Below are positions 15,860 to 56,199 of a stretch of DNA of 64,000 nt, piece after piece. The notes below the pieces were generated by a model. It was not told the DNA's origin, did no database searches, and was given only the letters and a program-made list of their open reading frames with translations. Position numbers and translations under genes: made by a program. Every line of letters begins with the position of its first letter. Positions within the stretch are counted from its first letter, which is position 1. Where the stretch lies: contig JAPOHD010000005.1 of assembly GCA_026671195.1 (NCBI GenBank), forward strand, positions 62,001 to 126,000. Direction: 5' to 3'. This DNA is from Draconibacterium aestuarii. Lineage in GTDB: Bacteria; Bacteroidota; Bacteroidia; Bacteroidales; Prolixibacteraceae.

Positions 15860-17053
15860 TTATTGAACAGGTTGATCTAATATCCACAACAAAGGATTCC
15901 GAATGGGTAAATTTCGTAAAACTTCGTCTGTTTCAGGGTAACCGTCCAATGTTTTCCACAAATCAATGTACGAATTATTTTTATAGGCTTTGCCTGCAAA
16001 CAGCAGAAACGGATGACGCACCGGCCACTCATCCCAATACATTACATCGGGTTTGAGTTCCCATTTGGTTTTATCCTTTACAAACGGATAAAGCCAGACT
16101 GCCCCCAGTTTCATGCTTTTCCCATCGCTTGTTGAATACCCGTACAAACTGTTCTTCTCATCCGAAAGAATTTCGGCGCAGGTCATAAAAGCATCGAGAT
16201 TAAAAAGCGAATAACCATAGGGTTTTGTGCGAGCCAATTCAAGAGGGAATGAACCATCGGTTCCCATTTGATTGGGCAACAACACATTTTTAAACCTGTC
16301 TCTGCAGAGTTCCAACACTTCTTCATTCCCAGATAACCGTGCAAACATACCTACTTGCATTACCCAGCAGGTTGCATGATTGTTTTTTGTATTCATCTCA
16401 TCCAATCCGTAAGGATGAGTTGTTAACCAGCTTACAAATTCGCTAAACCAGTTTTTTATCGCTGCTATCGTCTCTTTCGGCAAAGCCCGATTCATTTCTA
16501 AAATCTCGACAGACCGCGCCACCTCAATTAAGTGAATGGCATCTATTATTCCGATTCCCCGCCCGGTTACCCGGCCTTTTATGGCCTGCACATACAGCAA
16601 ACTTGGATTCATTCGTGTATCGGGATTTACAAACCAGGCCTCCAGGTGTTTTTGAGTGGCTTCTGCAAATTTTGAGTCGCCGGTTAATAAATAGGCAGAT
16701 GTTTGCATTCCAACAATCCGGCTTAATCGAATCATCGCATGACGGTGCGCCACAAAATTATCCGGGTTTGTTTGACCGTCTTTTCTGATGTATGGACCAT
16801 CAGGATTTTCAGGATCGGGCCACCAGTAATCGCCTTCAGAATAAAAATCGTGTTGATTACCCGCACTGCGTTCGCTAATAAAACGGGTAACCGTTTCCGG
16901 CACACTATCCATGAAAGCCGTTGCATTTTCGATAATATAACTCTGTTCTTCTGATGAAATACAGGAGATCTCATTTTGGGAGGTTGAACACCCCAAAAAA
17001 ATTACAAAAAAAGCAAAAATAAATCCATTTGAGAATCGATAATTATGCATCAT
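15860..17053 (-). CDS. PL38-like 'alginate lyase family' (PF05426) lipoprotein
   Basis: A 397-residue (alpha/alpha) toroid protein of the PF05426 group, which includes PL5 and PL38 lyases cutting uronic-acid polymers by beta-elimination; PL38 members act on glucuronan-type chains. It has a lipobox (IFLGC). Shared with its paralogue at 32502-33734 are YYWWPDP..DGPYIRKDG..NP (seen as DYWWPDPENPDGPYIRKDG near residue 80), RGIGIIDAIH, and the NNH motif (TKNNHATCW) with the likely catalytic Asn-His. The open frame begins at a TTG (17059), but the ATG at 17053 is the better start. It is the last gene of the minus-strand locus, 42 bp after the heparinase-like gene. Substrate: a uronate polymer, not necessarily alginate. 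Confidence 0.85.
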   Translation of the reverse strand: MMHNYRFSNGFIFAFFVIFLGCSTSQNEISCISSEEQSYIIENATAFMDSVPETVTRFISERSAGNQHDFYSEGDYWWPDPENPDGPYIRKDGQTNPDNFVAHRHAMIRLSRIVGMQTSAYLLTGDSKFAEATQKHLEAWFVNPDTRMNPSLLYVQAIKGRVTGRGIGIIDAIHLIEVARSVEILEMNRALPKETIAAIKNWFSEFVSWLTTHPYGLDEMNTKNNHATCWVMQVGMFARLSGNEEVLELCRDRFKNVLLPNQMGTDGSFPLELARTKPYGYSLFNLDAFMTCAEILSDEKNSLYGYSTSDGKSMKLGAVWLYPFVKDKTKWELKPDVMYWDEWPVRHPFLLFAGKAYKNNSYIDLWKTLDGYPETDEVLRNLPIRNPLLWILDQPVQ

Positions 17054-17101
17054 GTACAAGTTTTATAAATAACAAACGCAAGTAACAGAAAAAGAAAACA
17101 G

Positions 17102-19024
17102 CTATTTTAGCTCAGTAATTACTACATCATTTTTTCCCCTGGCTGTTGGAGTTTTCGCTTCCAGCACAATTCTGGTTATAGTATCCCAATATCGGCCTAA
17201 TCCTTTATCAGTAATTTCTATTTCCTCGATTTTAGATGAAAGTTTTTTTGCATTGTATTTCATTTGCATCGTAAAACCATCACCTGATAAAATCAGAATT
17301 CCGGGTTCCTTTTCATTTACTGAACATGCCGTAATATAATTCAGGCTTGTTGGTTTCTCCGTTAATTCATTTAACTCGTAGCTATCGGAAATGGTAAATT
17401 GTTTGCCGCGGTCAAGACGGTATGATCGGGTCCATTTTTTAACTTTTGCTTCCTCCGGGTAAGCTCCGGCAATTTCGGTGGAAAAAACGGCTTTTTTTGA
17501 ATCGGCACTGAAGGTTGAATTTCTTGCTTCAAACTTCCGCCCCTCTTTTTGATCAACTCCGTTTATTTTTGGTAGCTGATGGTATCCCGACTGCATGGTC
17601 CATATTTCGTAACGACGACTGCTAAAAGTTTTGGCAGTGTAGGTCTCCCTTCCAATATCAACCAAACAAGGTTTCCCGTTAAAATACAATACACAGGTTC
17701 CTAAATCGTTGTGATTATGACTTTCGGCATTGTGGCCACCTTTTGCAGCAAAGAAAAAACCTTCGGACGAACCGGCCTGATCACGCGCACCTGCTACCTG
17801 TGTTTCCGGTAACCAGAAATCGCCAACCAATGCTTCTTTTCCGGGAACTTTATCTATTTCGTCAAAAAGCATGAGTTGCATCAGTTGTTCGTCAATTTTT
17901 CCACCCGGAGCATCTGACCCCCAATTTTGTTTTTTGGCCAGAAACGCCCCAAACTCTTGCATTATATTATCTCCAATGTCTTTCCCGTAGCTGTATATAA
18001 TTTGTGGACGGCTACCGGTGGTTGCATCCGCATCTGCAAAATTTATAAAATAAGGATAGGCAATGTACGCCTTATAAATGTAGCTCCCCATATTTTTTAT
18101 GAGCTGATTATCGTACACATCAAACCGGCCCTTTGTTGCCCGTTTTAAAAGATCGAGGTTTTGGTAAAGCGAGGCGCCCGCCCTGCCCCAATACGATGGT
18201 CCCTCGTCGCAACCTCCGTCATTGGGATAAACGTTTATAAACTGATCGAGCGATTTTACCAATTTAGTTACACCCGCAACTTTTTTGTTCTGATCATCTT
18301 CCATAATTAAAATGGCTGTCAGCATGTTATGATTGGTCCACGGATTCCAGTTGTTAACATCGCGACTGCCATCGAGGCCCTGCCACCAAAAATCGCTACG
18401 CTCGTAATAGGGAGTTACGGCCTTGTACATGATTTCATCCTTTAAACGTGTTGAGATTAGTGGATGGATCTTGTCGAACTCGTCTTTGAACAGGAACCAG
18501 GTCCAGGAAAGAATATTCGCAATTTCGCCAACACCCAGATCAATAGATGGATCTTTAATATCGGGTAATCCTTTTGGACTGGGTAAATGTGCCGACCATC
18601 CCCACCAGGTTTGTTCGCTGTAATACCAAACACCATTTATAATCTGGTCGATAAAACGTCCCTTTCCCTCGGCGAGCTCTGCCATTACGGAAGCCATTAA
18701 AGCTGCCCGCGGTGCTGAATAAGCACCTTGCCTGCGATCGCCCGAACGAATAATTTCAAGATAATCGGTGGCTTTTACCACTGGCCAGTCGTAATCGAGG
18801 TATTTTTCGCCTTCGCTAATGTATTGTTTGCGCACAGAAGCAGGAAGACTGTTCCAGAAGTCGCGACTTTGATAGGTAGGAAATCCCAGTTCCGAAAAAT
18901 CCTTTATCAACACATTTTTAATATTAATTTCTTCAGCCTCTTTTTGAAGAATGTCTCTTTTTTCTTTCGAAAAACTGCCAAGAGTAAAAATTCCCAGCAG
19001 TAAAAGCAACAACATTTTTTTCAT
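17102..19024 (-). CDS. Heparinase II/III-family polysaccharide lyase
   Basis: 640 residues with a signal peptide (first ~18). An N-terminal (alpha/alpha) toroid spans about 30-390 and a C-terminal beta-sandwich about 410-640, the plan of PL12/PL15/PL17/PL21-type lyases. Candidate active-site elements are NNWNPWTNHN (224-233), DGGCDEGPSYW (269-279) with the Tyr, and the metal/His motif HNAESHNHNDLG (431-442). This set differs in detail from the three HepII-like paralogues between 33.8 and 41.7 kb, so it is a separate branch. It lies between GH78 and the PL38-like gene. It probably acts on uronic-acid linkages in the periplasm; the exact family number and substrate cannot be fixed by eye. Confidence 0.85.
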   Translation of the reverse strand: MKKMLLLLLLGIFTLGSFSKEKRDILQKEAEEINIKNVLIKDFSELGFPTYQSRDFWNSLPASVRKQYISEGEKYLDYDWPVVKATDYLEIIRSGDRRQGAYSAPRAALMASVMAELAEGKGRFIDQIINGVWYYSEQTWWGWSAHLPSPKGLPDIKDPSIDLGVGEIANILSWTWFLFKDEFDKIHPLISTRLKDEIMYKAVTPYYERSDFWWQGLDGSRDVNNWNPWTNHNMLTAILIMEDDQNKKVAGVTKLVKSLDQFINVYPNDGGCDEGPSYWGRAGASLYQNLDLLKRATKGRFDVYDNQLIKNMGSYIYKAYIAYPYFINFADADATTGSRPQIIYSYGKDIGDNIMQEFGAFLAKKQNWGSDAPGGKIDEQLMQLMLFDEIDKVPGKEALVGDFWLPETQVAGARDQAGSSEGFFFAAKGGHNAESHNHNDLGTCVLYFNGKPCLVDIGRETYTAKTFSSRRYEIWTMQSGYHQLPKINGVDQKEGRKFEARNSTFSADSKKAVFSTEIAGAYPEEAKVKKWTRSYRLDRGKQFTISDSYELNELTEKPTSLNYITACSVNEKEPGILILSGDGFTMQMKYNAKKLSSKIEEIEITDKGLGRYWDTITRIVLEAKTPTARGKNDVVITELK

Positions 19025-19089: not shown

Positions 19090-21753
19090 TCAAAAAACTA
19101 CATTAAAGCTGTAACTCCCTGAACCTAATTCCTTTCTTTCATTCGACACAGGTATAATAACCGTAGCGGTTGTATTCGCAGGAATTACCACCTTATACAC
19201 AAACCGGTCTCCCTCCATTTTCCAGTCGGATACTATTTTACCGTACATCGATTCATATTCGGCTTTAGCATACGTTAAACCGCCGCCGGGATGTGGAGCC
19301 AGGATAAAATGCTTGTATCCGGAGGTGTCGTGATCAATCCGAATTCCCGCCACATAATTGTAAAGCCATTCACCAATTGCTCCATAGGCGTAATGGTTAA
19401 AGCTGTTCATTCCAACATCCTGAAAAGTTCCGTCGGGTTTTTGCCCGTCCCAGCGTTCCCAAATTGTAGTTGCACCCTGCGTTACCGGATATAACCACGA
19501 GGGGTACTCTTTACGGTTTAGCAACATAAATGCCAGATCTTCGTAGCCATGATCTGATAATGAGGCACACAACAAAGACGTACCCACAAAACCGGTTGTT
19601 AAATGCTTCATTTTTTTTACATCATCGGCGAGGTATTTTGCTGCAGCAGGTACCAATTCTTCGGGTAAAAGACCAAACGATAATGCCAGCGAATAAGCAG
19701 TTTGAGTATGAGAAATAAGACGTCCGTTTGGCGTTACAAACTCATCTGAAAAGGCCTTTTTTATTCTTTCTGACAAGGTTGAATATTTTTCAGAATCAGC
19801 CTTATTTCCTATAATATCGGCGATTTTACTCAGGAGTTTAGAAGAATAGTAATAGTATGCGGTTGCAATTAAATCTTTTTCGGTAGTTGCTCCCGGATAA
19901 CTCGAACTTGTTGATGCAAACGCCAGCCAATCGCCATAATGTTTATCATCGGTCCATAGGTTACCATCACCAGCCCTGGTTTTCATATATTCCACCCAGG
20001 CTTTCATGCTCGGATATTGTTCCTCCAGAATTCGTTTATCGCCATATGCCAGATACATTGTCCAGGGTACTATCACCGCAGCATCAGACCAGGCAGCGGA
20101 TCCGCCTCTGCCGTTTCTAACATCAGGAACAACATCAGGTACCACTCCATTTGGAAGTTGGTCAACGGCCAAATCCTTTAACCATTTTGTGTAAAAAGCG
20201 GAAACATCGAAATTAAATGCCGCGGTCATACTAAAAACCTGTGCATCACCCGTCCAGCCAAGCCTTTCGTCGCGTTGCGGGCAATCCGTTGGCACGTCCA
20301 AAAAATTCCCTTTTTGTCCCCACTGAATATTGTGTTGAAGTTGATTTATCAAAGAGTCAGAACAGGAAAACGATCCGGTTGGCTTCATTTCTGAATGAAC
20401 AACCACACCGGTAATCTGATCCGGAGCCGGCATATTTGAAAATCCTTCGAGTTTTACAAATCGAAAACCAAAGAATGTGAAATTCGGTTCATAGATTTCT
20501 TCTTCATCACCTTTTTTTGTATAGCTAATTCTGGCTTTTGCCGAACGAAAATTATCGCGATAAAAATTTCCATCCTTATCCAGAACTTCAGCAAATTCCA
20601 GCTTAAACTCATCTCCCTTTTTTCCCAAAAACTTTAACCGAAGCCAGCCCACCATATTTTGCCCCATATCCACAACCATCTCTCTTTTTGGAGTCATGAA
20701 AATTGCTTTGGGTTTTAGCTCCTCTATTGCTTTAATTGGAACACTATTTTGGGCCACAAGAATATCTCTTGGCTGAGTTACAATCTTTACATTCTCCCAG
20801 TTTCTATCATCAAAATCCGGTACATTCCATCCCGGCATTTCCAGCCTGGCATCATAAATTTCGCCGTTGTAAATATCCGATTCTAAAATAGCGCCCGTCG
20901 ACTCTTTCCAACTTTGGTCAGATCCAATAATTTCGGCAGATCCATCAGTGTAGTTAATTCGGAGCTGTACAATCAAAGCTAATTTATCATCGTAGTAATA
21001 CGTTTGCGCCCTTCTATTCCGGCCAATTGTTCCCCGATACCAACCATCTCCGAGAATTGCTCCAACGGCATTTTTTTCGTTTAGCATTGAAGTAACATCG
21101 TATGTTTGATATTGCGTGCGTTTCGAATAACTGGTCCAGCCGGGTGTAAGTAATTCGGAGCTTACTCTTTCTCCATTTAAGTACAACTGGTACGCCCCCA
21201 GCGAGCTCGCATAAATCCGGGCCGATTGAATCTTTTTTTGTGTCGTAAATTCTTTACGAAAGTATCTGCACGGTTTCGAAAACGCTGTTTCATCTTCTGA
21301 TTTTACAGCAATCCACGATACGCTCCACAGATCAGGATCCAAAATCCCCATTTCCCAAAAAGCGGGCGAACTCCAACTACTAACCTTCCCCGAAGAATCC
21401 CAAACCCGAACCTGCCAATAATAGCGTTCCATCGATTTTAAAGCAGGTCCCTCGTAAACAACATTCACCGACTGATCGCTGCTAACTTTTCCCGAGCTCC
21501 ATGTTAAAGTTCTGTTTTTCCCTAAATTTTTTGGGGAATCAGCAACACGAATTTCATATGTAGTCTGTTTTACATTCACTTCTTCAGAAACGATTTGCCA
21601 GCTCAATCGTGGTTTAAACACATCAATTCCAACCGGATTTTGCCGGTATTCACATACAAGTTTCTCAACCTGAACTTTGGCATTTACCGATGTGAAACTG
21701 ATTGACAGAACTGCAAAAAATATTCTACTTAAAATCGAAAGTCTAATCTTCAT
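19090..21753 (-). CDS. GH78 alpha-L-rhamnosidase
   Basis: An 887-residue exported enzyme (signal peptide to about residue 25) with the standard GH78 order: Ig-like domain (~28-135), carbohydrate-binding N domain (~145-330), concanavalin-like domain (~340-455), (alpha/alpha)6 catalytic domain (~460-800) and C-terminal beta-sandwich. The hallmark PTDCPQRDERLGWTGDAQVF (488-507) carries the conserved acidic residues that include the likely general acid. It removes terminal alpha-L-rhamnose. It lies 57 bp downstream of the sulfatase-GH78 fusion and 65 bp upstream of a heparinase-like lyase, all on one strand, which makes rhamnose a constituent of the target polysaccharide. Confidence 0.95.
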   Translation of the reverse strand: MKIRLSILSRIFFAVLSISFTSVNAKVQVEKLVCEYRQNPVGIDVFKPRLSWQIVSEEVNVKQTTYEIRVADSPKNLGKNRTLTWSSGKVSSDQSVNVVYEGPALKSMERYYWQVRVWDSSGKVSSWSSPAFWEMGILDPDLWSVSWIAVKSEDETAFSKPCRYFRKEFTTQKKIQSARIYASSLGAYQLYLNGERVSSELLTPGWTSYSKRTQYQTYDVTSMLNEKNAVGAILGDGWYRGTIGRNRRAQTYYYDDKLALIVQLRINYTDGSAEIIGSDQSWKESTGAILESDIYNGEIYDARLEMPGWNVPDFDDRNWENVKIVTQPRDILVAQNSVPIKAIEELKPKAIFMTPKREMVVDMGQNMVGWLRLKFLGKKGDEFKLEFAEVLDKDGNFYRDNFRSAKARISYTKKGDEEEIYEPNFTFFGFRFVKLEGFSNMPAPDQITGVVVHSEMKPTGSFSCSDSLINQLQHNIQWGQKGNFLDVPTDCPQRDERLGWTGDAQVFSMTAAFNFDVSAFYTKWLKDLAVDQLPNGVVPDVVPDVRNGRGGSAAWSDAAVIVPWTMYLAYGDKRILEEQYPSMKAWVEYMKTRAGDGNLWTDDKHYGDWLAFASTSSSYPGATTEKDLIATAYYYYSSKLLSKIADIIGNKADSEKYSTLSERIKKAFSDEFVTPNGRLISHTQTAYSLALSFGLLPEELVPAAAKYLADDVKKMKHLTTGFVGTSLLCASLSDHGYEDLAFMLLNRKEYPSWLYPVTQGATTIWERWDGQKPDGTFQDVGMNSFNHYAYGAIGEWLYNYVAGIRIDHDTSGYKHFILAPHPGGGLTYAKAEYESMYGKIVSDWKMEGDRFVYKVVIPANTTATVIIPVSNERKELGSGSYSFNVVF

Positions 21754-21810: not shown

Positions 21811-24800
21811 TTAAAATGAATTGATTCGAATCTCAATTTCATTTACTCCGGGATTTAAACGAATGCTGCCAAAAGAAAGGCTTACCGACTCGCCATTTAC
21901 ACTAACAACAGCATTTTTGGGAAGAACAGGAGAGAATTCTCCCGGCATATTGGCCGGTAGTTCTATCCGGTAGCGGGTAAACCGGTTATTGACCAACTGG
22001 TAATCCGCCTTTATTTGTCCTTTAATGGTTGGCACAACTATGGAGCTGTTTTTTAAACTTCCCATTTGTGGTTGAATGCTAACCACGCCAAATCCGGGTG
22101 TTTTGGGTTGAATTCCCCACATGTAGCGCGGAATGATATTGGCCGGAGCGGCACCCCAGGCATGGTTCCAGTCGGAGTTGGGTTTGTAACGCATATCCCA
22201 GGCTTCCATGCTTATGGTCGATCCCACTTGTATCATATTGTACCAGCTGCGGTCGTTTGTGGCAGTCATCAATTCCAGTGCATAATCATCAGCACCGGCA
22301 ATGTATAAGGCTTCCATTAAAAACTGTGCACCGTAAACACTGCATCCCATTCCACGGGTTTTAATGTATTCGGCCACACTCTTTTTGTAAGCATCGGGAA
22401 CAATTCCAAAGGCCAGCGCTAACATATTTGAATGAACAGCACCGTGGTCGGTTTCAATACCATCTTTGTAATAGCCGCCATCTTTGCTAAAAAGCAACTC
22501 GTTCATCGATTTTTTTACCCGGACGGCGCGCATCTCAAAATCCAGCTCTTCTTCCGGTTTGTTTAAAATGCGGGCAAACTCGGCCATTATTTTCATATTC
22601 TGGTAATAGAAACTGTTTATAACTGTACTAACCGGTGTGAACACAAATCCGTCGCGTTCGCCCTGTGTCCAGTCTTTTGGTAGTTTCCAACCGGTATCTT
22701 TTTGTGCCGGTGGCCAGTCAACAATGTCACGCACCCGCTGTGTGGTATCGGCAAAACCCAGTTTCGCCATAAATTCGCCGGTAAGTTTTGGTGACGAGGT
22801 GCTGATCAATCCATCGCGGTATTCCAGCTCCATTAAAGTTTTGTATTTCAGTGGCTCGTAATATTTTTCAATCAATTCCGTGTTGCCTGTATACATGTAA
22901 TCCTGGTAAAACAACAGAGCTACATGCAACTGCCACTCGGTTGGCCACGTTGGGTAATCCATAAAATACTCGATGGTTTTGCGTGCAATGGCATATTCGT
23001 TATCCACCGAATAATGACTGAGCTGATTTAAATAAGCGTCGGCTTCATAAGGAATACGTTCGCGGTCGCCATCCACATAATAACCGGCAAAAGAAGTGGC
23101 TTTTTGCGAGTAGCGACACAATTCCCAAACCTGGTTTAAAATATCGTTATCGCTTGAAAACGAACTTGAATTATCATCGAAATAATAAAAATAAGCCAAC
23201 TGGGTAAGGTCTTTAGCCTGCAGATCTGTGGCTCCCTCAATTTCAACATAACGGAAAGGCATAATTACCGGAAACGAATCGGGCAAGGCAACTGCTTTTG
23301 AGTTGGTATTGCGTTCATTGGCAGGCAAATCAATTTGGTACTGTTTTTTACCGGGTGTCACCTCCAGCTCAACTTCCTGAAAACGAATGGTTCCTCCCGG
23401 TTTTCTGTCGATGGCTCCGTTGTCTAGTTTTTCACCCAAACGAATGGTAAGCGTTTCCTGCTTGTTTGCTGAATAGTTGATGGTCAATGTTCCAAAAGCG
23501 TCTTTCCCAAAATCGGCAAAATAATTTCCATCGGTATTCTTTTTAAAATCAACAGGTTTAATCTTTTCGATTTTGAAATAATTGGCCGATGTAATTTTAT
23601 CACCAAAAGTTCCGGTGGTAAATTCCTGCGCTTCCGAATATTCCGAAATGCGGTTGTCTTTGTCGTAGATCCTGACTTTCCAAAAATAGGTGGTATTCTC
23701 TTTTAACGGCTGCCCCTTATATTCCATATTGAAAGACTGGCTGCTGCGCACATTTCCGCTATCCCAAACATCACCAATATTTACATCAATTTTCCCCTTA
23801 CTTGAGGCTACCAGCACTTGATAACCTTTTTGTAAAACCGCCTCGGCAGGTACAATCCAGCTAAACTCAGGTTTCGGATCGATGATTTTTGTGTAGCGCG
23901 GATCGCGAATGTATTCTACCGTTAAACCTTCAGGAACCCCTGAATACGGATCGGCATACCGGTGTGCCAACTCGTTGTTTTTAGTCCTTAATTCCAGCAA
24001 AATACTTTTGTATTTTGGATCAGAAGCCACGTTATTTATCTCTTTTGGATCCTCTTTCAGATTATATAATTCCTCTAACGACTTGTCGTTTACATAACGG
24101 AAATATTTCCAGTCTTCAGTTCTTATTCCCTCGCTGGGCGGAATGTTTTCAAATTCCCAAAGGTGTTCGATTAAAATGGTATCTCGGTCCAGTTCTTTTT
24201 GTTTGCCTTCAACAATGGGCAATAAACTTCTACCCTGGTAAGTTTCGGGTAGTTTCACTCCCGCAATATCAAGAAGCGTTGCCGGAACGTCAATATTCAA
24301 AGCCATTTCGTCAATATCGTGGTGTTTATTAACGCGCGGATCGTAAATGATCAACGGCACCCTGATTGAATTGTCGTACATCAACCATTTGCCTGAAATC
24401 TGGCGCTCGCCCAAAAAGAAACCATTGTCGCCCATTAACACAATTACCGTGTTGTCGTCCAGTCCTTTTTCTTTCAGTTTTTTTCTGATTTTTGCAATTT
24501 CCAGATCAATGCCGTAAATCATACGATAGTAACCTTTTGTACTGTGCTGGTATTTTTCGGGCGTATCGTTTTTCCAGAACCAGCGCGTGCGGTTAAAACC
24601 ATCGCGTACTGCCTGTGGCAAAGCATAAAAATATTTATCATCGGCCAGGTCGGGTCCAGGCAGATCCATATTCTGATACAGTTTATCGGGTTCTTCCTGC
24701 CAGAAATATTGCAAAGGTGCTCCGTCGTGGGCATGTGGTGCACTAAAACACAACGATAAGGAAAACGGTTTATCAGCTGGTACATTATCGATAAAATCGA

Positions 24801-25350: not shown

Positions 25351-25451
25351 AGTTAAAAATTTGAGCTTATAGAACTTCATTGTTTCAATTTTTGGCCTCG
25401 TTAAAGGCAAGTGATAATGGTACAACAAAACAACAACTTTCACCAATTTTT

Positions 25452-32497: not shown

Positions 32498-32501
32498 CTT
32501 T

Positions 32502-43951: not shown

Positions 43952-43967
43952 AATTCTGAATTTTAAG

Positions 43968-44007: not shown

Positions 44008-44027
44008 TCAATAAATGGAACAAGTTA

Positions 44028-46828: not shown

Positions 46829-46848
46829 AATTATCATTTTTTAATGAA

Positions 46849-49800
46849 TTAAAAATTAGCTTTTATCCCCAGAGAAAAAGTTCTGGAGTAGGGTTCATTA
46901 CCTACCCTCAAATCTCTTTTTTCCCTGTTTTTCGCAAATTGGTAAATATCTGAAGCATCAACGTAAACCATCATTTTTTTCATAAATAAGGCATTTGCAG
47001 CCATCTGTGGCAAATTATAGGTAAGCTGAATTTTCCGAATGTTGAAATAGTCGTTGTTATACAACCAGTAGCTAGAACGGCGGAAGTTATTATTATCTGA
47101 TTCAGCACTCAATCTTGGATATGTAGCTGTATTTGCAGTTTCCGGAGTCCAGCTTCCACGCACTATTTCTGAATATTTATCGTTCCCATCTACCCAGTAA
47201 TAGTTCCCTTCCATAAACGTTTCGGAACCTGACCGACCTTCTCCTAAAACATAAAGAGTGAAGTCTTTGTAAGCCAATTTAATATCCACGCCACCCGAGA
47301 ACGGTGCCTGCCAACGGCGCAAATAAACTTCATCATTGCCATCAACAATACCATCGCCATTCTGGTCTTTGTATTTTATATCGCCAGGTTGAACAGCACC
47401 AAAAGCCTGTGTCGGGCTATTGTCAATATCTGTCTGATCATTGAACAAACCGATAGCTTCTAACCCAAATGATGCATCTCTCGGATTGCCTTGTCTGTAT
47501 TGATAGTCGTTGTCATAAACTTCATCTACAACCTTTCTCTCCGAAGTTACATAAAGTGCATTAATACCTATTACCAAATTCAATTCTCCAAATGATTGAT
47601 TCAGATCTAAACCAACTTCAACTCCTTTGTATGCATCCTCCTCAAAATTTTCGTAAGGAATATAAGGTGTATAAAAACTGGGGTAAATTGTTGTTGGACG
47701 GGTAACCAAATCGCTATAGAGTTCATAAAATGCATTGGCCTCAATGCCCAGTTTTTTGTTGAAAAATAATCCGTCAAAGCCAAAAGTTACCTCGTTGCGT
47801 TTTGCAAAACCAAGGTTCGGATTGTCGCTCCAGCTGGAACTAGTACCTCCCCGGCTTCTGTTTCCTTCAAACCATTGATAACTTCCTGAACCACCGTAAC
47901 GATTATCGTAGTAAAAAAATCCACCAATAGGAAGGTCGGAATTTAGAATACCACCGGACAACCTCAATTTCAAATAATCAACATTATCAGCCGATGCCAT
48001 AAAGTCTTCAGAACTCATCATCCAGGCCAACCCGAGTGAGGGTGAGAAACCACCTCTGTTTCCTTCAGGTAACTTTACAGAACTTGCATAATTACTACTA
48101 AAATCAACCATATATTTTCTATTGAATATGTAGTTAATTTGAAGTCCGAGATGCGATTGCTTTACACCCTGAAAGTCATTGGTTTGTTTAAAATTACTGC
48201 CATACCCAAGCAACGATCCGCTTACTTGATGTACATCATTAAAAATCCTGTCGTAACTAAATAATCCATAAAAACCAAATCTCCTGCGGAACATAGCATT
48301 CCCAACAGACTGGGTTCCTGGCCGATTGTCTGTTCCATGTTGTTTCAAATTAACAATTATGTCTTCATCTTCGGCCCAAATTGGTTCATAAACAGAGTAA
48401 TCATTATAAACTGTTTGGTTATAAGCTGTATAATAATCAAAACTGATGTTGGTATGGAAAGACAAACCTTGTGTTAGCTTATTCAAATCGAAATCGACAC
48501 GGTTGTTGAACGAAAATTTACGGGAAATCCGTTCAAAAACTCCTCCAGCATATCCATCACCAAAAGGCGTGGTCAGGTGGTTTGAATTGCCACCAATGAG
48601 GTATTCGCCATTTACGTCATTTTTTCTGGCTTTTAATAACTCATTTTCCTGATCGATTAAATCAAAAGGTAGCAGTGGAGTATATAAATGCGGTCTGAGG
48701 CTTGCAGCGGAACTCCAGTAGTTGCCTCTCTGACTTCTATCGTTTCCAAAAATTGACACTCCGTCAACCGAAGTTTTAATCCAGTCGTTCACTTTTAGGT
48801 CAACATTTCCCCGAATATTAAATACATTGTCCCTGGCATTTGCACCTTCGCCAAAATCGAGATATCCGCCAGATGAATGCCAGCCAACATTTGCATAATA
48901 CTTGGCAACATCATTCCCATCGGAAAATTGACCTTCCAAATCGAAATAATTTTTTAATGGTTTTAAATACTCATCGGAGTAATAATCCACATCAGGATAC
49001 CGGTATTTATTCCCAGACCTGTAATTTTCAATCTCTTCTTCACTAAACGTTTCTGTTTTTCCGTCATTAAGTCTGGCCTGGTTATAATAGGTCATATAAT
49101 CAGCAGAATTCAGAAAATCAGGCGTTGCCCGAGGCGCAGAAATTCCATAATTTACCGAAAAATTAGATTGCTTTTTGAAAGCTTCACCACGTTTTGTGGT
49201 AATTAATATTACCCCGTTTACAGCAGCGCTACCATACAAAATAGAAGCGTTTACATCTTTAAGAACAGTTATGTCTTCAATTTCAGACAAGCGCAACGAT
49301 TCAATATCGCGAGGAAGGCCGTCAACAATAAACAATGCATTTCCTGAAAAAAGGCCACTGCCCGTTTCATCTGCCACATTAATACCAATTCCGATACCTC
49401 TAATGCTACTGCTTCCTAACATTCCTAAGGTACGACCGTTTAAAACATTGCTGGCCCAAATAGAATTGTCATACGCATTTACTTTATCACCATTTACTGT
49501 ACTAAACGCGCCAACAACATTTCCCTTATGAACTCTGCGAAATGCCAAATCTACCATATCATCGCTTCCATATAAAAATGGAGATGTTTTTAAACTGATA
49601 TTGACTTTGTTTCTCACTTCATCCAGAGTAGCGGTAGTATTTTCATAACCATTGGCCTCTACAATCAACTTTGACCCAGGCTCAACAAAAACAGTAAATT
49701 TACCATTGGCATCGGTTTTAGTATAGGCGGCACCACTGAAAATCTCTGCATTTTTAATCGGATTACCGTTTTCATCAACAATAACCGACTCAATGGTTAT

Positions 49801-49890
49801 CAACTTCTCTTTCTGGGCAAATACTTCATTGTGTTGAAATAAAATGATCCCACATAGAAAAGCTAATATTATATAATATTTTTTCTTCAT
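46849..49890 (-). CDS. SusC/RagA-family TonB-dependent transporter (SusC2)
   Basis: 1013 residues with a signal peptide (ending VFAQ). A carboxypeptidase-regulatory-like domain (~33-95: ITIESVIVDENGNPIKNAEI) is followed by the plug domain (ALFIVDGLPRDIESL and VNGVILITTKRGEAFKKQ near 190-240) and a beta-barrel ending RTFSLGIKANF. It lacks the usual 'VVVGYGTQKK' segment before the plug and has a divergent domain junction (FRRVHKGNVVGAFSTVNGDKV), unlike SusC1. It imports oligosaccharides with energy from TonB. Its SusD partner starts 20 bp downstream. Confidence 0.97.
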   Translation of the reverse strand: MKKKYYIILAFLCGIILFQHNEVFAQKEKLITIESVIVDENGNPIKNAEIFSGAAYTKTDANGKFTVFVEPGSKLIVEANGYENTTATLDEVRNKVNISLKTSPFLYGSDDMVDLAFRRVHKGNVVGAFSTVNGDKVNAYDNSIWASNVLNGRTLGMLGSSSIRGIGIGINVADETGSGLFSGNALFIVDGLPRDIESLRLSEIEDITVLKDVNASILYGSAAVNGVILITTKRGEAFKKQSNFSVNYGISAPRATPDFLNSADYMTYYNQARLNDGKTETFSEEEIENYRSGNKYRYPDVDYYSDEYLKPLKNYFDLEGQFSDGNDVAKYYANVGWHSSGGYLDFGEGANARDNVFNIRGNVDLKVNDWIKTSVDGVSIFGNDRSQRGNYWSSAASLRPHLYTPLLPFDLIDQENELLKARKNDVNGEYLIGGNSNHLTTPFGDGYAGGVFERISRKFSFNNRVDFDLNKLTQGLSFHTNISFDYYTAYNQTVYNDYSVYEPIWAEDEDIIVNLKQHGTDNRPGTQSVGNAMFRRRFGFYGLFSYDRIFNDVHQVSGSLLGYGSNFKQTNDFQGVKQSHLGLQINYIFNRKYMVDFSSNYASSVKLPEGNRGGFSPSLGLAWMMSSEDFMASADNVDYLKLRLSGGILNSDLPIGGFFYYDNRYGGSGSYQWFEGNRSRGGTSSSWSDNPNLGFAKRNEVTFGFDGLFFNKKLGIEANAFYELYSDLVTRPTTIYPSFYTPYIPYENFEEDAYKGVEVGLDLNQSFGELNLVIGINALYVTSERKVVDEVYDNDYQYRQGNPRDASFGLEAIGLFNDQTDIDNSPTQAFGAVQPGDIKYKDQNGDGIVDGNDEVYLRRWQAPFSGGVDIKLAYKDFTLYVLGEGRSGSETFMEGNYYWVDGNDKYSEIVRGSWTPETANTATYPRLSAESDNNNFRRSSYWLYNNDYFNIRKIQLTYNLPQMAANALFMKKMMVYVDASDIYQFAKNREKRDLRVGNEPYSRTFSLGIKANF

Positions 49891-49921: not shown

Positions 49922-51739
49922 TTACCATCCTGGATTTTGTGGAAAACCCTCGTATAATTTTGTAAAACCAACCTGCATGGGTAGCCAGTTATGTTTTTTC
50001 TCGGCAACCCTTGTCACAATTACTCTTTCTGAAAGGTTGATTGGTTTTCCGTCAGGTCCACGCTCAAAATCAATAGCGGTTTTATCAAGGTACCTTGGGT
50101 CATTATTCCGGTTCCAACGACGCAAATCGCAAAAACGGGCACCTTCAAAAATTAATTCAACGGCGCGTTCCCGAACAATTTCTTCGAAAAACACATCCTG
50201 GCTTCCTGTATATTTTGAATCAATATTAGGCAATTGTGCCCTGTTACGAACTGCATTCAAAGCGCCTTCGGCTGTCATAGTATAATTACCTGATGTGCTT
50301 TGAGGTGTCCCACCGTTGCTACTAAACAGTACAGCTTCGGCATACATCAAATAAACATCAGCCATACGCAAATAAGGAACATAAGGTTGAATTCTACCTG
50401 CGAACGAGGTATTGAAATCTTTATCCATGCCATTAAATTTACGAGAATAGTATCCGGTGACACTTGGCGGATTAATTTGTGAACGGTGACGGCCACCAAT
50501 GAATAGTTCAGCATACTTATCATCTGATTTATCGCGGTGAATTCGGTCGCCATCTTTTACAATAATCTTATAGAATCTTGGGTCGCGGTTTGTCCACGGA
50601 TCATTGGGATCGTAACCTGATTCAGGATCATCAATAGGCAGCCCATTGGCCATTCCATAGTTTTTGGTAATGTTATGGGTAGGTACATCGGCATTCGAAC
50701 CACTGTTTAAAGCAAAAGAAGATGGAACCGTTGCTCCAATAGCTGACCATCTTACACGTGAACGATTATAAATAGTAGGAATCATAATTGCTTCGATTCC
50801 ACCCGGATGTTTTCGGTTACGATCATAAAAAATTTGCATATAATCGTCCCAGGGTTGCAGACCATATATACCAGTGTCATCCGCCAACTTTAGCAATTCG
50901 CCAAACGCATCAGCAGCTTGTTTGGCCAATTCTCCATTGAAAGTGTTACTGCCATTTGCTTCTTCGTTGGGCATAGGGCTGGCACCATACAATAATGCTT
51001 TCCCCAGGTACCCCAGCGCAAAAAACTTATTAATTCGCTGAAAATTGCCCCCTTCAGTAGCCTGACCTACTGAAGTTTCATCCCAGTGGTTGGGTAGTAA
51101 ATCGGCTGCTGCCATAAAATCTTCAGCCATTTTTTTAGCTGTTTCCTGATAACTGAGCCTGTTAAACTCTTCTGTTATCAAACTTTCGGTAGGGCTTAAA
51201 GTTCTTGTTATATAAGGCATGCCACCCCAGTAACGACTCAATTCGAAATAGAAGAATCCCCTGAAAAACAATGCTTGCCCTTTCAATAAGTCCTTTTCTT
51301 CCTGCGTACCTTCAAACAAACTTGGTGCCTCTTCTGTTCCTTCTAACTTTTCCAGTGCCAGGTTTGCTTTTCTTATTGCATACCAGGCATATTCCCATAC
51401 CCTGTGATCTCTGGGATTATTGCTAGTAGTGCGTACACTTTGTCCATAAAAATATCCTTCATTTCCCCAGTAGTTTCCCAGATCAAACTGGTAGGGATAA
51501 TTATTCAAGGTTTCGTCTGCAAACAAATACTTGTTCCATGCCCCTCCTTTATCAGGATCCATTACACAGTTATACAACTCTTCAACAAATCCCTGGAAAC
51601 TTATGAAATCTCCATAGGCATCTTTTTCGGTAATGCTGGCTTCAGGAGCTTTATCTAAATAATCCTCGCATGAAATTGAAATTAAAAACAGCATTACGAA
51701 AGCCACATAAATTTTTTTATTCTTTATTATCCTTTTCAT
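49922..51739 (-). CDS. SusD/RagB-family nutrient-binding lipoprotein (SusD1)
   Basis: 605 residues with lipobox ISISC (Cys24) followed by EDYLDKAPEASIT, the typical mature start of SusD proteins. The C-terminal block ALNAVRNRAQLPNID...EIVRERAVELIFEGARFCDLRRWNR is diagnostic of the family. It pairs with SusC1, whose stop is 11 bp upstream. Sequence differs widely from SusD2, so the two pairs probably take up different oligosaccharides or different sizes. Confidence 0.97.
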   Translation of the reverse strand: MKRIIKNKKIYVAFVMLFLISISCEDYLDKAPEASITEKDAYGDFISFQGFVEELYNCVMDPDKGGAWNKYLFADETLNNYPYQFDLGNYWGNEGYFYGQSVRTTSNNPRDHRVWEYAWYAIRKANLALEKLEGTEEAPSLFEGTQEEKDLLKGQALFFRGFFYFELSRYWGGMPYITRTLSPTESLITEEFNRLSYQETAKKMAEDFMAAADLLPNHWDETSVGQATEGGNFQRINKFFALGYLGKALLYGASPMPNEEANGSNTFNGELAKQAADAFGELLKLADDTGIYGLQPWDDYMQIFYDRNRKHPGGIEAIMIPTIYNRSRVRWSAIGATVPSSFALNSGSNADVPTHNITKNYGMANGLPIDDPESGYDPNDPWTNRDPRFYKIIVKDGDRIHRDKSDDKYAELFIGGRHRSQINPPSVTGYYSRKFNGMDKDFNTSFAGRIQPYVPYLRMADVYLMYAEAVLFSSNGGTPQSTSGNYTMTAEGALNAVRNRAQLPNIDSKYTGSQDVFFEEIVRERAVELIFEGARFCDLRRWNRNNDPRYLDKTAIDFERGPDGKPINLSERVIVTRVAEKKHNWLPMQVGFTKLYEGFPQNPGW

Positions 51740-51750
51740 ATTCGTAATTA

Positions 51751-54700
51751 TTAAAATGATAAATCTATGCCTAAATTAACACGTTTTACAGTTGGATAAG
51801 CTCCCTGAGTAGCACTTCCTCCTGAATAAGTCGTAGTTCTGTCATCCGGCAATTTAGACCAGAAGAAAAGATTATTTCCATTCAGGAATAGCCTGAAATT
51901 TGAAAATCCTGCTCTTTTTACCCAATCCAAATCATTGAATGTGTAAGCAATTTCAGCGTTTTGTAACCTAAGGTAAGAAGCATCGTAAAGGTAATAATCT
52001 CCAATGTTCTCGGCCTGAGTTTTCCACCTTGGCAGGAACGATGTAGCATCTGGATTATCTTTTGACCAATAATCTGCTACGTGGCCAAATACAATATCAA
52101 TATCGTTTTGATAATTGTTAAATCCTACATAGCGATTGGCATTATTTACTCCGAAAAACTGAATCATAAAGCTGAATCCACCGTAGTCTGCTCCAAGTGT
52201 AAAGGAACCTGTATTCTGCGGAACTCCTGAATATCCAATGGGTGGAGTATCTTCACTATTTTTTATGATACCATCGGCATTAAAATCAACCAAATTGTAA
52301 TAACCGGGAAGTTTATCTGCATCGTTATTTTCAGTAGGTACACTGGCATAAACTTCATCCCAATTGTTATAAAAATCTGTACTCAACAACCTCTTTTGTT
52401 GTCCAATCGGATAGCCTTTGGCTTTCAGGTATTCAAACTGAAGTGGCGCATCATCGCGTTCAATTACTTCATTTTCGTTGTGTGTAAGCGCAAGTTTTGC
52501 CCAAACATTTGCTTTATTATTTATCCTTTTGTTAAAGCCCAATTCTATTTCAAATCCTTTTGATTTAACATGGCCTAAGTTTGCACTTGGTGGTGTGGCT
52601 CCAAAAAATGGAGGAACATTTCTGCTACCTCCCGACATCAGAATATCCGTCCGGTCTTCAGTAAAATAATCAAAATTTAATGTAAATAAGTTTTTTAATA
52701 CACCAAACTCAACACCAAAGTTTGTTTTAAGTGCACTTTCCCAATGAATATCAGGATTTCCAACCACAGCTTCTCTATAGAAATTATAGGGACTCCAACC
52801 AGAAGTTGAGTTACTCAGGCGAGCTCTTCCACCATACGCTAATTGAGACTCATATAACCAACGAGATCCACTCACTTTATCATCACCTACTCTACCAATA
52901 CTGTATCGAATTTTTAATCGGTCAACCCAATCAATGTTGAAAAATTCTTCATTAGAAACATACCAACCTACCGCTAATGAAGGGAAAAATTCGAAACGGT
53001 AACCTGGTCCAAATTGTTCAGAACCATTATAGGCGCCGTTTGCTTCAAACAAATACCTACTGTCATAACCGTAGGTTGTGCGAAAAACCCAGTCTTCACG
53101 ATAATTTTTGAACATACTTCCTACCGCGTATTCTTCGCGTTTAAATACACCCATTGCAGAAACATTATGATTTTCGAAAGTACGGGCATAATTCATTTGG
53201 AATTCATACATCATTCGGCGAGAAACCGGGATGTAGCTTGTCCAGTTTGCTGAAGTTATATTTTCCTGGCGAACAGACCATGGGTTAAGGGCCCAGTCGT
53301 ATTCCTCATCGCCAATAGGAAGCAGTACTGTATATTCACTCGGGTCCTGATCCGGACCTTCATATTTCATCGGATAAATTTGTTTAAACGGAACGTTAGT
53401 CCTCGCTTCTGCAGGTCTGATACTGTTTTGTACGTCATAAATTCCCCCTTCAGAACGGATGCTGTTATCGTAAAACAGAGATGCCCTTGCACTTAAACCT
53501 TTTGTAATAAAACTAAGATCCTGCACCAGTTTAAAATCGGCGTTTAACTGCGTTTGCCGTGTTTGCCTGACACCAATATTATACACTGCGGCAATTGGAT
53601 TTACAGTATTATTACCACCTTCCTGATAGGCTCCCCAACGGCCATCTTTATATTTTGGTAAAAACAGATTGGGAGCCATTCCATAAGTAGCTTTCCACAT
53701 CCATGCATCGGCCCGGCTTGTACTTCCTTCATTATTATAATTGGTATTTTTCAGACTGTAATATCCTGATAAATTGATCTTTAGTTGTGTTGATTTCGTC
53801 AGTTCGATGTCAATATTACTTCTAAAATTAAACCTGTCATAATCATAATTAGGATCGTAAGTTTTAAAATTGTCATAATCTTTAAACATGTCACCTTCAT
53901 GCAAATAAGCCAGTGAGCCAAAATACCGAACGGCTTTGCTACCACCTTGCGCATTCAGTGTCATACGGTGAGAAAAACCGATATCTTTAAACATGGCATC
54001 TTCCCAGTCCACATTTGGATAAATTTCTGCATATTCTTCTGATTGTGGCTTCCTGTATCGTTGAACTATCTCATAAGGAACATACGCTCCCCATGAAGGT
54101 TCATTTAACACTCCTTCCCGTTCAATGATCTCATTTTTGGCCATCATCGCTGCGTACGATTCAAGTTTGTCCGGTTGCCTTGATAGCATTTTACCCGTTG
54201 TGGTGTAGTTAAAATTCAACTTTGTTTTTCCTGCCTCGCCGCGTTTGGTAGTAATAAGGATAACACCGTTTGCTCCCTTAACCCCAAAAACAGCAGTAGC
54301 GGAAGCATCTTTTAATACAGAGATACTTTCAACCTCATTTACATCTACGTTATTCATATTTCGCTCCACACCATCTACCAATATCAGAGGCTGGCCACCG
54401 TTCCAGGTATTCTGCCCTCTAATATAAATCTCAGTGGAGCTTTCTCCTGTAAGAATTCCACCAGGCTCACCGGAGGATGTTAGAGCAACCATACCAGGAA
54501 TTTGCCCCACCAGGTTTTCGGTAAGGTCAGTAGAACTTCCTGACCGACGGAGTTCTTCGTTTGTTGCCTGTTCTATGGAGCCGACAACACTTTCCTTCTT
54601 CTGTACACCATAACCTACAGCAACAACTTCTTCAAGTCCAATGGATTGTTCTTTCATCACTACATTGAAAGTGGTTTGATTTCCAACTTTCATTTCCTGC

Positions 54701-54960
54701 ACTCCCATTCCTACAAATGAGAATACAAGAGTAGCATCGTTGCTTACCCCGGAAATCGTAAAATCACCGTCGGCATCAGTGACGGTCCCCTTGGTAGTAC
54801 CTTTTTCAACAACAGTGACACCAGGAAGTGGCAGTCCTCCTTCGTCTGTAACATTTCCAGATACAGTTTTTTGTGCATAGGCTCCTATGCTAACTGTAAC
54901 CAGAAAGAAACATAGCAATAAAAAGCTGAGTGCCATTTTTGTTCCATTTTTGTTTTTCAT
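51751..54960 (-). CDS. SusC/RagA-family TonB-dependent transporter (SusC1)
   Basis: 1069 residues with a signal peptide (ending AYAQ). A carboxypeptidase-regulatory-like domain (~31-105: VSGNVTDEGGLPLPGVTVVE) is followed by LEEVVAVGYGVQKKESVVGS (113-132) and the plug (QPLILVDGVERNMNNVDVNE and ANGVILITTKRGEAGK). The beta-barrel ends in VKRVNLGIDLSF. It transports oligosaccharides across the outer membrane with TonB. It lies 57 bp downstream of the GH88 gene. Confidence 0.98.
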   Translation of the reverse strand: MKNKNGTKMALSFLLLCFFLVTVSIGAYAQKTVSGNVTDEGGLPLPGVTVVEKGTTKGTVTDADGDFTISGVSNDATLVFSFVGMGVQEMKVGNQTTFNVVMKEQSIGLEEVVAVGYGVQKKESVVGSIEQATNEELRRSGSSTDLTENLVGQIPGMVALTSSGEPGGILTGESSTEIYIRGQNTWNGGQPLILVDGVERNMNNVDVNEVESISVLKDASATAVFGVKGANGVILITTKRGEAGKTKLNFNYTTTGKMLSRQPDKLESYAAMMAKNEIIEREGVLNEPSWGAYVPYEIVQRYRKPQSEEYAEIYPNVDWEDAMFKDIGFSHRMTLNAQGGSKAVRYFGSLAYLHEGDMFKDYDNFKTYDPNYDYDRFNFRSNIDIELTKSTQLKINLSGYYSLKNTNYNNEGSTSRADAWMWKATYGMAPNLFLPKYKDGRWGAYQEGGNNTVNPIAAVYNIGVRQTRQTQLNADFKLVQDLSFITKGLSARASLFYDNSIRSEGGIYDVQNSIRPAEARTNVPFKQIYPMKYEGPDQDPSEYTVLLPIGDEEYDWALNPWSVRQENITSANWTSYIPVSRRMMYEFQMNYARTFENHNVSAMGVFKREEYAVGSMFKNYREDWVFRTTYGYDSRYLFEANGAYNGSEQFGPGYRFEFFPSLAVGWYVSNEEFFNIDWVDRLKIRYSIGRVGDDKVSGSRWLYESQLAYGGRARLSNSTSGWSPYNFYREAVVGNPDIHWESALKTNFGVEFGVLKNLFTLNFDYFTEDRTDILMSGGSRNVPPFFGATPPSANLGHVKSKGFEIELGFNKRINNKANVWAKLALTHNENEVIERDDAPLQFEYLKAKGYPIGQQKRLLSTDFYNNWDEVYASVPTENNDADKLPGYYNLVDFNADGIIKNSEDTPPIGYSGVPQNTGSFTLGADYGGFSFMIQFFGVNNANRYVGFNNYQNDIDIVFGHVADYWSKDNPDATSFLPRWKTQAENIGDYYLYDASYLRLQNAEIAYTFNDLDWVKRAGFSNFRLFLNGNNLFFWSKLPDDRTTTYSGGSATQGAYPTVKRVNLGIDLSF

Positions 54961-55017
54961 AAAAAATAGTTTTAATTAATTTAAAGTATGCCTTGTACAT
55001 ACAGCCATACAGGCTGG

Positions 55018-56199
55018 TTAATTATCATTAAGCAATTGTTTATTTCTTATTATGGCTTCCAGAAAATAATAATCGGCATATACTAAAGGCACATCAATTT
55101 CAGAATCCTTTGGTTTATGCCCTGTTGAATGTTCCAGTAAAAATCCTGCATTTTCACCAACGGGTGCCAAAAACTCATCGGAAGAAAGCGTTGTCAAAAG
55201 TTTCTGCGCTACTTCCAGGTAAATCGCCTTATGATTTGAAAAACCACTTAGTTCAAATAATGCCGATGCAATTATTGCTCCTGCTGAAGCATCGTAAGGT
55301 TCGTTTGGAATATTGGGAGCATTAAAATCCCAGTAAGGAATTTTGCCCTCTTTTATTCCGGGTTGGTTTAAAATAAAATCTGCAATTTTTTCGGCCTGAG
55401 ATAAAAACTCCGTCATTCCTGTTTCGCGGTACATCATGGTAAAACCATACAAGCCCCAAGCCTGCCCCCGCGCCCATGCACTTTCATCGGCATACCCCTG
55501 GTGGGTATTCTTATTTTCAACTTCTCCTGTTTCAGGATTATAATCGATAACATGATAAGATGAATTGTCCTTTCTGAAATGATCTTTTAGCGTTGTTTGT
55601 GCGTGTATAATGGCTATTTCTTTAAAGTTATCGTTTCCGGTTTCTTTTGCAGCCCACAACAACAACTCCAGGTTCATCATATTATCAATTATAACCGGAT
55701 AATCCCATTTGTCGCTGTTATGATCCCAGGAACGAATACAGCCAACAGTTGGATTAAAACGGGTTGCGAGGGTTTTAGCCGATTGTACCAGAATTTCTCT
55801 GTAATTAGCAACGTTGGTATATTTTATGGCCTGACCAAAACTACAATACATTTTAAATCCCATGTCGTGTGTACCACCGTTCCACTTCTCCTCTTCAAGA
55901 GGCAAAGTAAACTGTAACGCTTTTTCTTTCCATTTTTCGTTACCCGAAAGTTCATATATCATCCATAGGTTTCCGGGAAAGAATCCACTGGTCCAGTCGC
56001 GTGAAGACACAAGTTTTAATTCTCCATTTTCTGAAGTTCGGGGCGATATCAACTTTTTTGTTGACAATTGTTCAGCCATTTGAACAGCATAATCGAGTTG
56101 AGCTTCCAAATGACCAATTAATACTTTTGAATCATCCGACTTTTGTACACTGCATCCAAAAATCAGAAGAAATAGAAGAAACGGAATAATCTTATTCAT
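55018..56199 (-). CDS. GH88 unsaturated glucuronyl hydrolase lipoprotein
   Basis: 393 residues with lipobox LIFGC (Cys16). It has the (alpha/alpha)6 barrel of GH88, which hydrates and releases the 4,5-unsaturated uronate left at non-reducing ends by polysaccharide lyases. The key acids match Bacillus sp. GL1 UGL (Asp88/Asp149, from memory): Asp112 in GGTHDMGF and Asp172 in IDNMMNLELL, 60 residues apart. DESAWARGQAWGLYGF is the other family block. It is the first gene of the 40-kb minus-strand locus and links directly to the twelve lyase-type genes that would generate its substrate. Confidence 0.95.
   Translation of the reverse strand: MNKIIPFLLFLLIFGCSVQKSDDSKVLIGHLEAQLDYAVQMAEQLSTKKLISPRTSENGELKLVSSRDWTSGFFPGNLWMIYELSGNEKWKEKALQFTLPLEEEKWNGGTHDMGFKMYCSFGQAIKYTNVANYREILVQSAKTLATRFNPTVGCIRSWDHNSDKWDYPVIIDNMMNLELLLWAAKETGNDNFKEIAIIHAQTTLKDHFRKDNSSYHVIDYNPETGEVENKNTHQGYADESAWARGQAWGLYGFTMMYRETGMTEFLSQAEKIADFILNQPGIKEGKIPYWDFNAPNIPNEPYDASAGAIIASALFELSGFSNHKAIYLEVAQKLLTTLSSDEFLAPVGENAGFLLEHSTGHKPKDSEIDVPLVYADYYFLEAIIRNKQLLNDN

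Follow-up and report, generated by a model that had tools for sequence, protein, structure and literature searches.

A lyase-rich SusCD-type locus of Draconibacterium aestuarii, possibly for an ulvan-like polysaccharide

Gene content and layout of the cluster

The window analysed here is a stretch of 64,000 nucleotides from Draconibacterium aestuarii (Prolixibacteraceae; assembly GCA_026671195.1, contig JAPOHD010000005.1, positions 62,001 to 126,000 of the forward strand). Positions 15860-56199 of the window hold 20 open reading frames (ORFs), all on the minus strand, which combine adjoining SusC and SusD genes with carbohydrate-active enzymes; together with a neighbouring regulator this is usual for a polysaccharide utilization locus (PUL) of Bacteroidota. 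Twelve of the encoded proteins are lyase-type. In our reading this SusCD-type locus would target a sulfated, ulvan-like polysaccharide of rhamnose and uronic acid and take it apart mainly by beta-elimination; we put the probability of this reading at about 0.5.

The initial annotation had counted six heparinase II/III-type, two PL8-like, two PL38-like and two propeller proteins besides GH88, a sulfatase-GH78 fusion, GH78, two SusCD pairs and a regulator. Pfam searches with the 20 proteins gave the same make-up (six Hepar_II_III_C, two Lyase_8, two PF05426 'Alginate_lyase' of PL38 type, two BNR_4, the sulfatase-GH78 fusion, GH78, GH88, two SusC and two SusD) and added one BT_3987/DUF5627 protein. 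The one-strand layout was likewise borne out, with the regulator on the plus strand beyond the interval. By family, the lyase-type proteins comprise one PL33, two PL12, three PL35, two PL8, two PL38-type and two seven-bladed propeller proteins, in four architectures; the other carbohydrate-active enzymes are one GH88, two GH78 domains and one sulfatase, which is fused to GH78. Intergenic gaps measure -35 to 65 nt in 18 of 19 cases; that between HepF and HepE measures 245 nt. The features are as follows.

15860-17059, minus: PL38A, PF05426 lyase, lipoprotein-like (Pfam, 7.4e-84)
17102-19024, minus: HepA, PL33-type lyase (PL33 structure matches)
19090-21753, minus: GH78 alpha-L-rhamnosidase (Pfam)
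21811-25446, likely start 25350, minus: sulfatase-GH78 fusion, P36-like, CSASR motif at C115 (6hr5 match)
25473-26861, minus: BNRA, propeller lyase-type protein with H116/Y166/K182, candidate new family
26842-28998, minus: PL8A, chondroitinase AC-like (Pfam, PDB search, alignment)
29025-31070, minus: HepB, PL12-type, both heparinase domains, N245 Y299 H424 (Pfam, alignment)
31100-32530, likely start 32497, minus: BNRB, GH145/PL42-type propeller (5muk and 7esl matches)
32502-33734, minus: PL38B, PF05426 lyase, lipoprotein-like (Pfam; 32% identity to PL38A)
33792-35660, minus: HepC, PL35-type, N190 Y244 H398 (Pfam, alignment)
35664-37883, minus: PL8B (Pfam, alignment)
37890-39797, minus: HepD, PL35-type, N217 Y271 H425 (Pfam; 59% identity to HepE)
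39837-41699, minus: HepE, PL35-type, N202 Y256 H410 (8khv match)
41945-43951, minus: HepF, PL12-type, N290 Y344 H473, numbered on the longer ORF 41945-44062 (4mmi match)
43977-44000, minus: terminator-like hairpin, 10 pairs and a T run, separating the SusCD/DUF5627 block from HepF and the lyase block
44028-45041, minus: BT_3987-like N-terminal/DUF5627 protein, probable surface glycan-binding lipoprotein (Pfam)
45071-46837, minus: SusD2 (Pfam)
46849-49890, minus: SusC2 (Pfam)
49922-51739, minus: SusD1 (Pfam)
51751-54960, minus: SusC1 (Pfam)
55018-56199, minus: GH88-type unsaturated glucuronyl hydrolase, lipoprotein-like (PF07470)
56680-60738, plus: hybrid two-component regulator (HTCS), divergent, outside 15860-56199, presumably regulating the locus

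The TTG starts of three ORFs seem too long, and ATG codons at 43951 (HepF), 25350 (sulfatase-GH78) and 32497 (BNRB) are the likely starts; they were picked by reading, without a start-site program. Because of the hairpin the lyases could be less strongly expressed than SusCD; 22 such sites occur in the scanned region, compared with 12.0 +/- 3.3 in shuffles.

The sulfatase part of the fusion matched the structure of Formosa agariphila P36 (6hr5) at 8.5e-216 in a PDB search, and a P36-like sulfatase-GH78 of this kind belongs to the canonical ulvan PUL. The separate GH78 is 63% identical to homologues in two Flavobacterium loci (L015, L016). The GH88 protein matched PF07470 (3.9e-07; 29.8 bits, cut-off 26.6), gave no match in an NCBIfam search and carries the motifs HDMGF and IID, which we take to be a GH88 hallmark. 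Lipobox-like signals were seen in PL38A, PL38B, HepC, BNRB, GH88 and perhaps HepF; the others mostly look like soluble exported proteins. These calls were made with a lipobox pattern and by eye, without a signal-peptide program. PL8A, HepE and both SusC fitted the pattern too and were discounted, and it missed HepC, BNRB and SusD1, which were read by eye. Because it over- and under-hits in this way, locations are claimed here only with reserve.

Active sites of the lyase-type proteins

PDB sequence searches were run for seven of the 12 lyase-type proteins; HepB, HepC, HepD, PL8B and PL38B were placed via Pfam and their paralogues. Catalytic reference residues were taken from the accessible parts of PMC12088678, PMC11848413, PMC8377490 and PMC8406133, the PL12 and PL8 references being compared through residue spacing or the PDB alignment of PL8A. 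Leaving the PL38 type aside, known catalytic residues are kept in eight of 10 members and substituted in PL8B and BNRA.

In alignments, Asn, Tyr and His are present in all six heparinase-type proteins, and the Asn-to-Tyr spacing equals that of characterised relatives (54 for PL12 and PL35, 53 for PL33). HepA matched the PL33 structures 8r6z, 8r75, 8r70 and 8r73 at E 2e-143 to 4e-146 (8r6z, 3.8e-146). Its N225, Y278 and H436, with a Trp equivalent to W242, correspond to N238/Y291/H444/W242 of PL33, and that Trp is described as invariant in PL33 subfamily 1 in the accessible part of PMC11848413. HepE matched the PL35 structure 8khv over its full length (2.9e-106) and has the triad; HepC and HepD are assigned to PL35 through alignment to HepE. 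HepF matched the PL12 structure 4mmi (5.6e-135) and the NCBIfam model named HepC (6.3e-166, under that model's cut-off), and shows the two heparinase domains, triad and 54-residue spacing of PL12; HepB, 28% identical to HepF, is placed there by Pfam and alignment.

PL8A led to chondroitinase AC in the PDB search, and its N182, H231, Y240 and R294 are the PL8 residues, invariant in 41 of 41 sequences. Assignment of PL8A to PL40 was considered and dropped, as the search returned PL8-type structures and no Uly1040, a PL40 ulvan lyase that a 908-amino-acid gene of a relative (G019) did match. PL8B has the PL8 domains by Pfam and keeps Y255 and R310. In a joint alignment with PL8A, however, each of the 14 PL8B sequences has Asp (D173) in place of the PL8 Asn and Arg (R245) in place of the His. 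Standard active sites in all twelve proteins, as once considered, are thus not what is found, the conserved residues of PL8B lying partly outside the PL8 columns. H243 and H244 directly precede R245, so that a shifted catalytic His is possible, and chondroitinase ABC II has an Asp neutraliser according to the accessible part of PMC12088678. By this analogy PL8B may be an enzyme of shifted specificity rather than a dead one.

PL38A matched 3nfv (1.2e-56) and the PL38 structures 9fi1 and 8bdq (about 1e-38); its N226, N227, H228 and Y281 are conserved across nine sequences. PL38B is linked to PL38 through PL38A and Pfam. The NNH and Tyr motifs are common to both proteins.

BNRB matched the GH145 structure 5muk (2.9e-43) and the PL42 structure 7esl (8.3e-20). 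Like BT3686 and FoRham1 of these families it has the anterior His/Tyr/Arg (H124, Y178 and R194, in 8 of 8 sequences) and, in 7 of 8, the posterior GH145 His (H72); its gene context, with a P36-like sulfatase-GH78, differs. The Tyr-Arg spacing is 16, as in PL25, and the score against the NCBIfam BT3686 model lies far under the cut-off (194.5 against 700). In GH145 enzymes both sites can work, as stated in the accessible part of PMC8406133.

BNRA matched PL25 and GH145 weakly in the PDB search. With the PL25 ulvan lyase (5uam/5uas; His123/Tyr188/Arg204) it shares the fold, His (H116) and Tyr (Y166), but Arg204 is replaced by Lys and His143 by Arg. K182 stands where BNRB and PL25 have Arg. The Lys occurs in 11 of 11 BNRA sequences, the window's included, whereas the six flavobacterial propellers aligned all have Arg. 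On these residues, assignment as a plain PL25 enzyme was rejected. A structure model was middling (pLDDT, the predicted local distance difference test score, 67.4; 13 sequences), and its thirteen best folds belong to PL25, PL42, Uly1 (PL24) and the BT3686 group, in which BACINT_00347 and 4irt were counted by similarity, not by their labels. The 'PL24/25-like propeller' of the initial annotation therefore holds for BNRA at fold level, and BNRB is instead a GH145/PL42 relative. The fixed active-site changes in PL8B and BNRA lend weight to the suggestion that the chemistry of some members has shifted, as far as alignments can indicate it.

Recurrence in the genome and in relatives

In the 6.37 Mb genome, six of seven PF07940 matches, both BNR_4 matches and both genes found with PL8A as query fall in the cluster. 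PF07940 matches occur in 55 of 90 genomes from the family; six of these have more than seven (up to 16) and four others exactly seven. To annotate loci in 17 related genomes, the window proteins and three reference genes of relatives (PL40-type, a heparinase type of 694 amino acids, PL6-like) served as queries, with at least 30% identity and at least half coverage required; several contigs end early. G021, G052, G458, G499 and another stretch of G016 were fetched as well but lie outside this set. The threshold leaves out the PL40-like genes of G016 and G013 (27-29%) and fusions of a PL38 domain to a beta-helix.

The fetched loci hold 4 to 13 lyase-type genes per relative, with modules exchanged, compared with 12 in the window: G093 13 (three stretches), G016 12 (three contigs), G043 11 (over 100 kb), G001, G005 and G019 10 each, G004, G017 and G106 nine, G008, G018 and G116 seven, G020, G013 and G099 six, and G092 and G358 four. 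Much of the lyase set thus recurs across the genus and sister genera, and the cluster is less singular than was implied at first. PL8A and PL8B recur as separate orthologues that differ in fixed active-site residues. Within the annotated loci HepD was found in the window and G093 only, PL38B at high identity only in G004, and the separate GH78 at threshold in none of the 17. BNRA occurs in 39 of 140 family genomes (own included) as against three of the 394 other genomes sampled from the class; several genomes of sister genera carry it on another contig than the fetched lyase locus.

Relatives also carry lyase-type genes of other make-up. A PF05426 domain is fused to a right-handed beta-helix at L056:10523-12577 and L089:6200-8260, and chondroitinase-B-type (PL6-like) lyases adjoin PL38A in two relatives (L069:2406-3797; L075:3377-4786), one of them beside GH29. 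Proteins of 321, 411, 481 and 582 amino acids in or beside lyase loci (L056:7644-8609, L055:8467-9702, L067:6505-7950 and L086:11133-12881) had no Pfam match up to E 1 and are possible new enzymes.

Substrate and proposed degradation

A uronate target, most likely a sulfated rhamnoglucuronan as first proposed, is suggested by the P36-like fusion, by the GH78s, by the two propellers, whose best matches are Rha-GlcA or ulvan lyases, by the His/Tyr/Arg set that places BNRB in the PL25/GH145 clan and by PL40-type lyases in relatives. According to the accessible part of PMC8511951, P36 desulfates terminal rhamnose 3-sulfate (Rha3S) and then takes off the rhamnose (Rha) on Rha3S-ended trisaccharides. 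The 908-amino-acid gene of G019 matched Uly1040 at 3.3e-70, and homologues of 62-89% identity lie in the loci of G017, G092, G043 and G093. Among 31 listed PL8A-type loci, seven, from flavobacteria, hold a propeller 23-26% identical to BNRA in the same stretch; the PL25-type His, Tyr and Arg are present in all six that were aligned, which were chosen for having a BNRA-type match. In one such locus with a PL8A homologue (L018), GH106, GH2, GH43 and an S1 sulfatase were confirmed by Pfam.

Where the fusion lies in the fetched locus (window, G001, G004, G005, G008, G016, G018), BNRB is also found in seven of seven cases, in G016 on another contig. Five loci carry the reference PL40-type gene or a homologue at least 62% identical to it, and none of them has the full fusion; in G013, G116 and G093 the fusion lies on contigs whose surroundings lack annotation here. 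A rule by which PL40 would be the alternative to sulfatase-GH78 and BNRB was set aside, since partial contigs, the 27-29% PL40-like genes of G016 and G013 and these unannotated surroundings weaken the pattern.

Several observations weigh against an ulvan-like substrate. By Pfam, the 20 proteins include no GH39, GH43, GH2, GH3, PL28 or PL40 and one sulfatase only, so that the GH39/GH43 and several sulfatases of canonical ulvan PULs are wanting; for the cluster, the initial annotation was right that most of the classic ulvan set is missing. 'One sulfatase' applies within the cluster, and 75 stretches matched genome-wide. An established ulvan lyase of PL24, PL25, PL28 or PL40 is likewise missing from the cluster, BNRA being remote to PL25 and the PL40 type confined to relatives; a PL40 search of the own genome, run without a positive control, gave no match. 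The stretches fetched from G458 and G499 contain BNRA homologues but none of the other window lyases. The loci of G019 and G017 have no sulfatase-GH78 and no GH78 at threshold, from which it follows that the rhamnose part is not core.

This core without rhamnose enzymes also suits a less likely alternative, namely that the substrate is another uronate-rich glycan (an exopolysaccharide of microalgae, diatoms, cyanobacteria or other bacteria) in which 4-linked glucuronic acid (GlcA) occurs in several contexts beside some rhamnose, the likeness to ulvan being a shared Rha-GlcA motif only. The GH29 and PL6-type genes of some relatives and G043 are in keeping with it: the sample name of G043 (Umea3p4) suggests a freshwater source, and its GH78 half is present without the sulfatase domain. 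However, the freshwater reading rests on that name and the contig has other sulfatases, for which reason a freshwater, sulfate-free version in G043 was rejected, and PL40 and P36-like enzymes are linked to ulvan in print.

A glycosaminoglycan locus (chondroitin, hyaluronate, heparan or marine analogues) is unlikely, although PL8A, HepF, HepA and HepE have glycosaminoglycan lyases as their closest relatives of solved structure and the cluster has the PL8, PL12, PL33 and PL35 lyases and GH88 of such PULs. In the accessible part of PMC13027841, the Roseihalotalea indica PL8, PL35 and PL38 enzymes degrade hyaluronate, two of them also chondroitin, and chondroitin sulfate induced their locus. Against this stand the two GH78 domains, the P36-like sulfatase and the propellers BNRA and BNRB, both from the Rha-GlcA clan, and Pfam found no hexosaminidase-type domain or second sulfatase among the 20 proteins. 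Mere redundancy, with duplicated lyases of overlapping activity and little meaning, is improbable: HepD and HepE are 59% identical and PL35 enzymes are known as broad (PMC12088678, accessible part), but the remaining lyase pairs are only 22-38% identical, and PL8A and PL8B recur separately with their own fixed residues. For the preferred ulvan-like polysaccharide we can only infer the substrate, because xylose enzymes and most ulvan-locus sulfatases are absent and PL8, PL35 and PL38 enzymes elsewhere cut glycosaminoglycans.

Comparison with known systems was made from the accessible parts of the publications. The Formosa agariphila ulvan PUL (PMC8511951) has in common with the window the P36-type sulfatase-GH78, GH78 and an unsaturated uronyl hydrolase step, and with some syntenic relatives a PL40-type lyase. 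Its pathway uses two lyases, three sulfatases, seven glycoside hydrolases and, later, a dehydratase; the window has 12 lyase-type proteins, one sulfatase and no xylose enzymes. In Maribacter dokdonensis 62-1 (PMC8072126) a PL33 adjoins PL40 and an ulvan target was proposed, but that PL33 is of subfamily 2, in a PUL with several sulfatases and fucosidases, whereas the window PL33 has the subfamily-1 Trp and is joined by PL8, PL12, PL35 and PL38. The Roseihalotalea PUL (PMC13027841) unites PL8, PL35 and PL38 in one SusCD locus, as in the window; it has three lyases and CE19, with no rhamnose enzymes named in that part, and was shown on hyaluronate and chondroitin. Searches among open-licence papers listed none whose title or opening abstract lines report a locus of this group with so many lyases. 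The parts are of known kinds; new are their combination, the fact that it recurs, and the active-site changes in BNRA and PL8B.

In the proposed scheme, the lipoprotein-like PL38A, PL38B, HepC, BNRB and perhaps HepF would act at the surface with SusCD and the DUF5627 protein. In the periplasm, the soluble PL33, PL12, PL35 and PL8 enzymes and BNRA would cut 4-linked uronates beside different partner sugars, epimers and branch states. From Rha3S-capped oligomers the P36-like protein would take off sulfate and its GH78 domain the rhamnose; alternatively, BNRB would eliminate at the bare Rha-alpha-1,4-GlcA bond, giving an unsaturated uronate and sparing the dehydratase known from Formosa. GH88 would finally split unsaturated disaccharides into keto-uronate and free sugar. 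An alternating backbone of uronate and neutral sugar would need few other hydrolases, which matches the locus content (many lyases, one GH88, GH78s).

More tentatively, the locus could be a lyase cascade for an undescribed rhamnose-uronate polysaccharide with several uronate linkages, BNRA and PL8B having new chemistry or specificity and BNRB acting as an exo-lyase. BNRA may then found a propeller lyase family in which a Lys neutraliser replaces Arg; PL8B would perhaps be a PL8 offshoot with Asp/Arg for the catalytic Asn/His, directed at the iduronate epimer; and BNRB, on desulfated Rha-GlcA ends, may replace the GH78 and P29 dehydratase of Formosa.

If the ulvan-like reading is true, there would be a second route for such polysaccharides, with elimination replacing the hydrolases and further sulfatases of known bacteria, natural contexts beyond glycosaminoglycans and alginate for PL12, PL33, PL35 and PL38 members, and, in BNRA and PL8B, altered lyase active sites to study. 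Because several genera of the family share parts of the locus, it would bear on the turnover of such polyuronates.

A separate classic ulvan PUL was looked for in the own genome by following the P36-like place on contig C17, which proved to be a GH106/GH78 locus; no screen of the genome for GH39 or PL28 was made. This probably rhamnan-type locus (L125) has a second SusCD set, a P36-like sulfatase, GH106 and five GH78-type genes, four of which match the window GH78. On a Persicobacter plasmid (L085), found by a plasmid search with the fusion, a sulfatase-GH78 of 67% identity is accompanied by six more sulfatase-like genes; the sole match to a window lyase there is BNR-type at 29%. Beside the cluster, positions 6361-14690 of the window hold nucleotidyl transferases, a GDP-mannose-dehydratase-like gene, an MFS transporter, GH29 and a Na/H exchanger, and in G004 (L063) a nucleotidyl transferase, an MFS transporter and a Na/H exchanger likewise come after PL38A.

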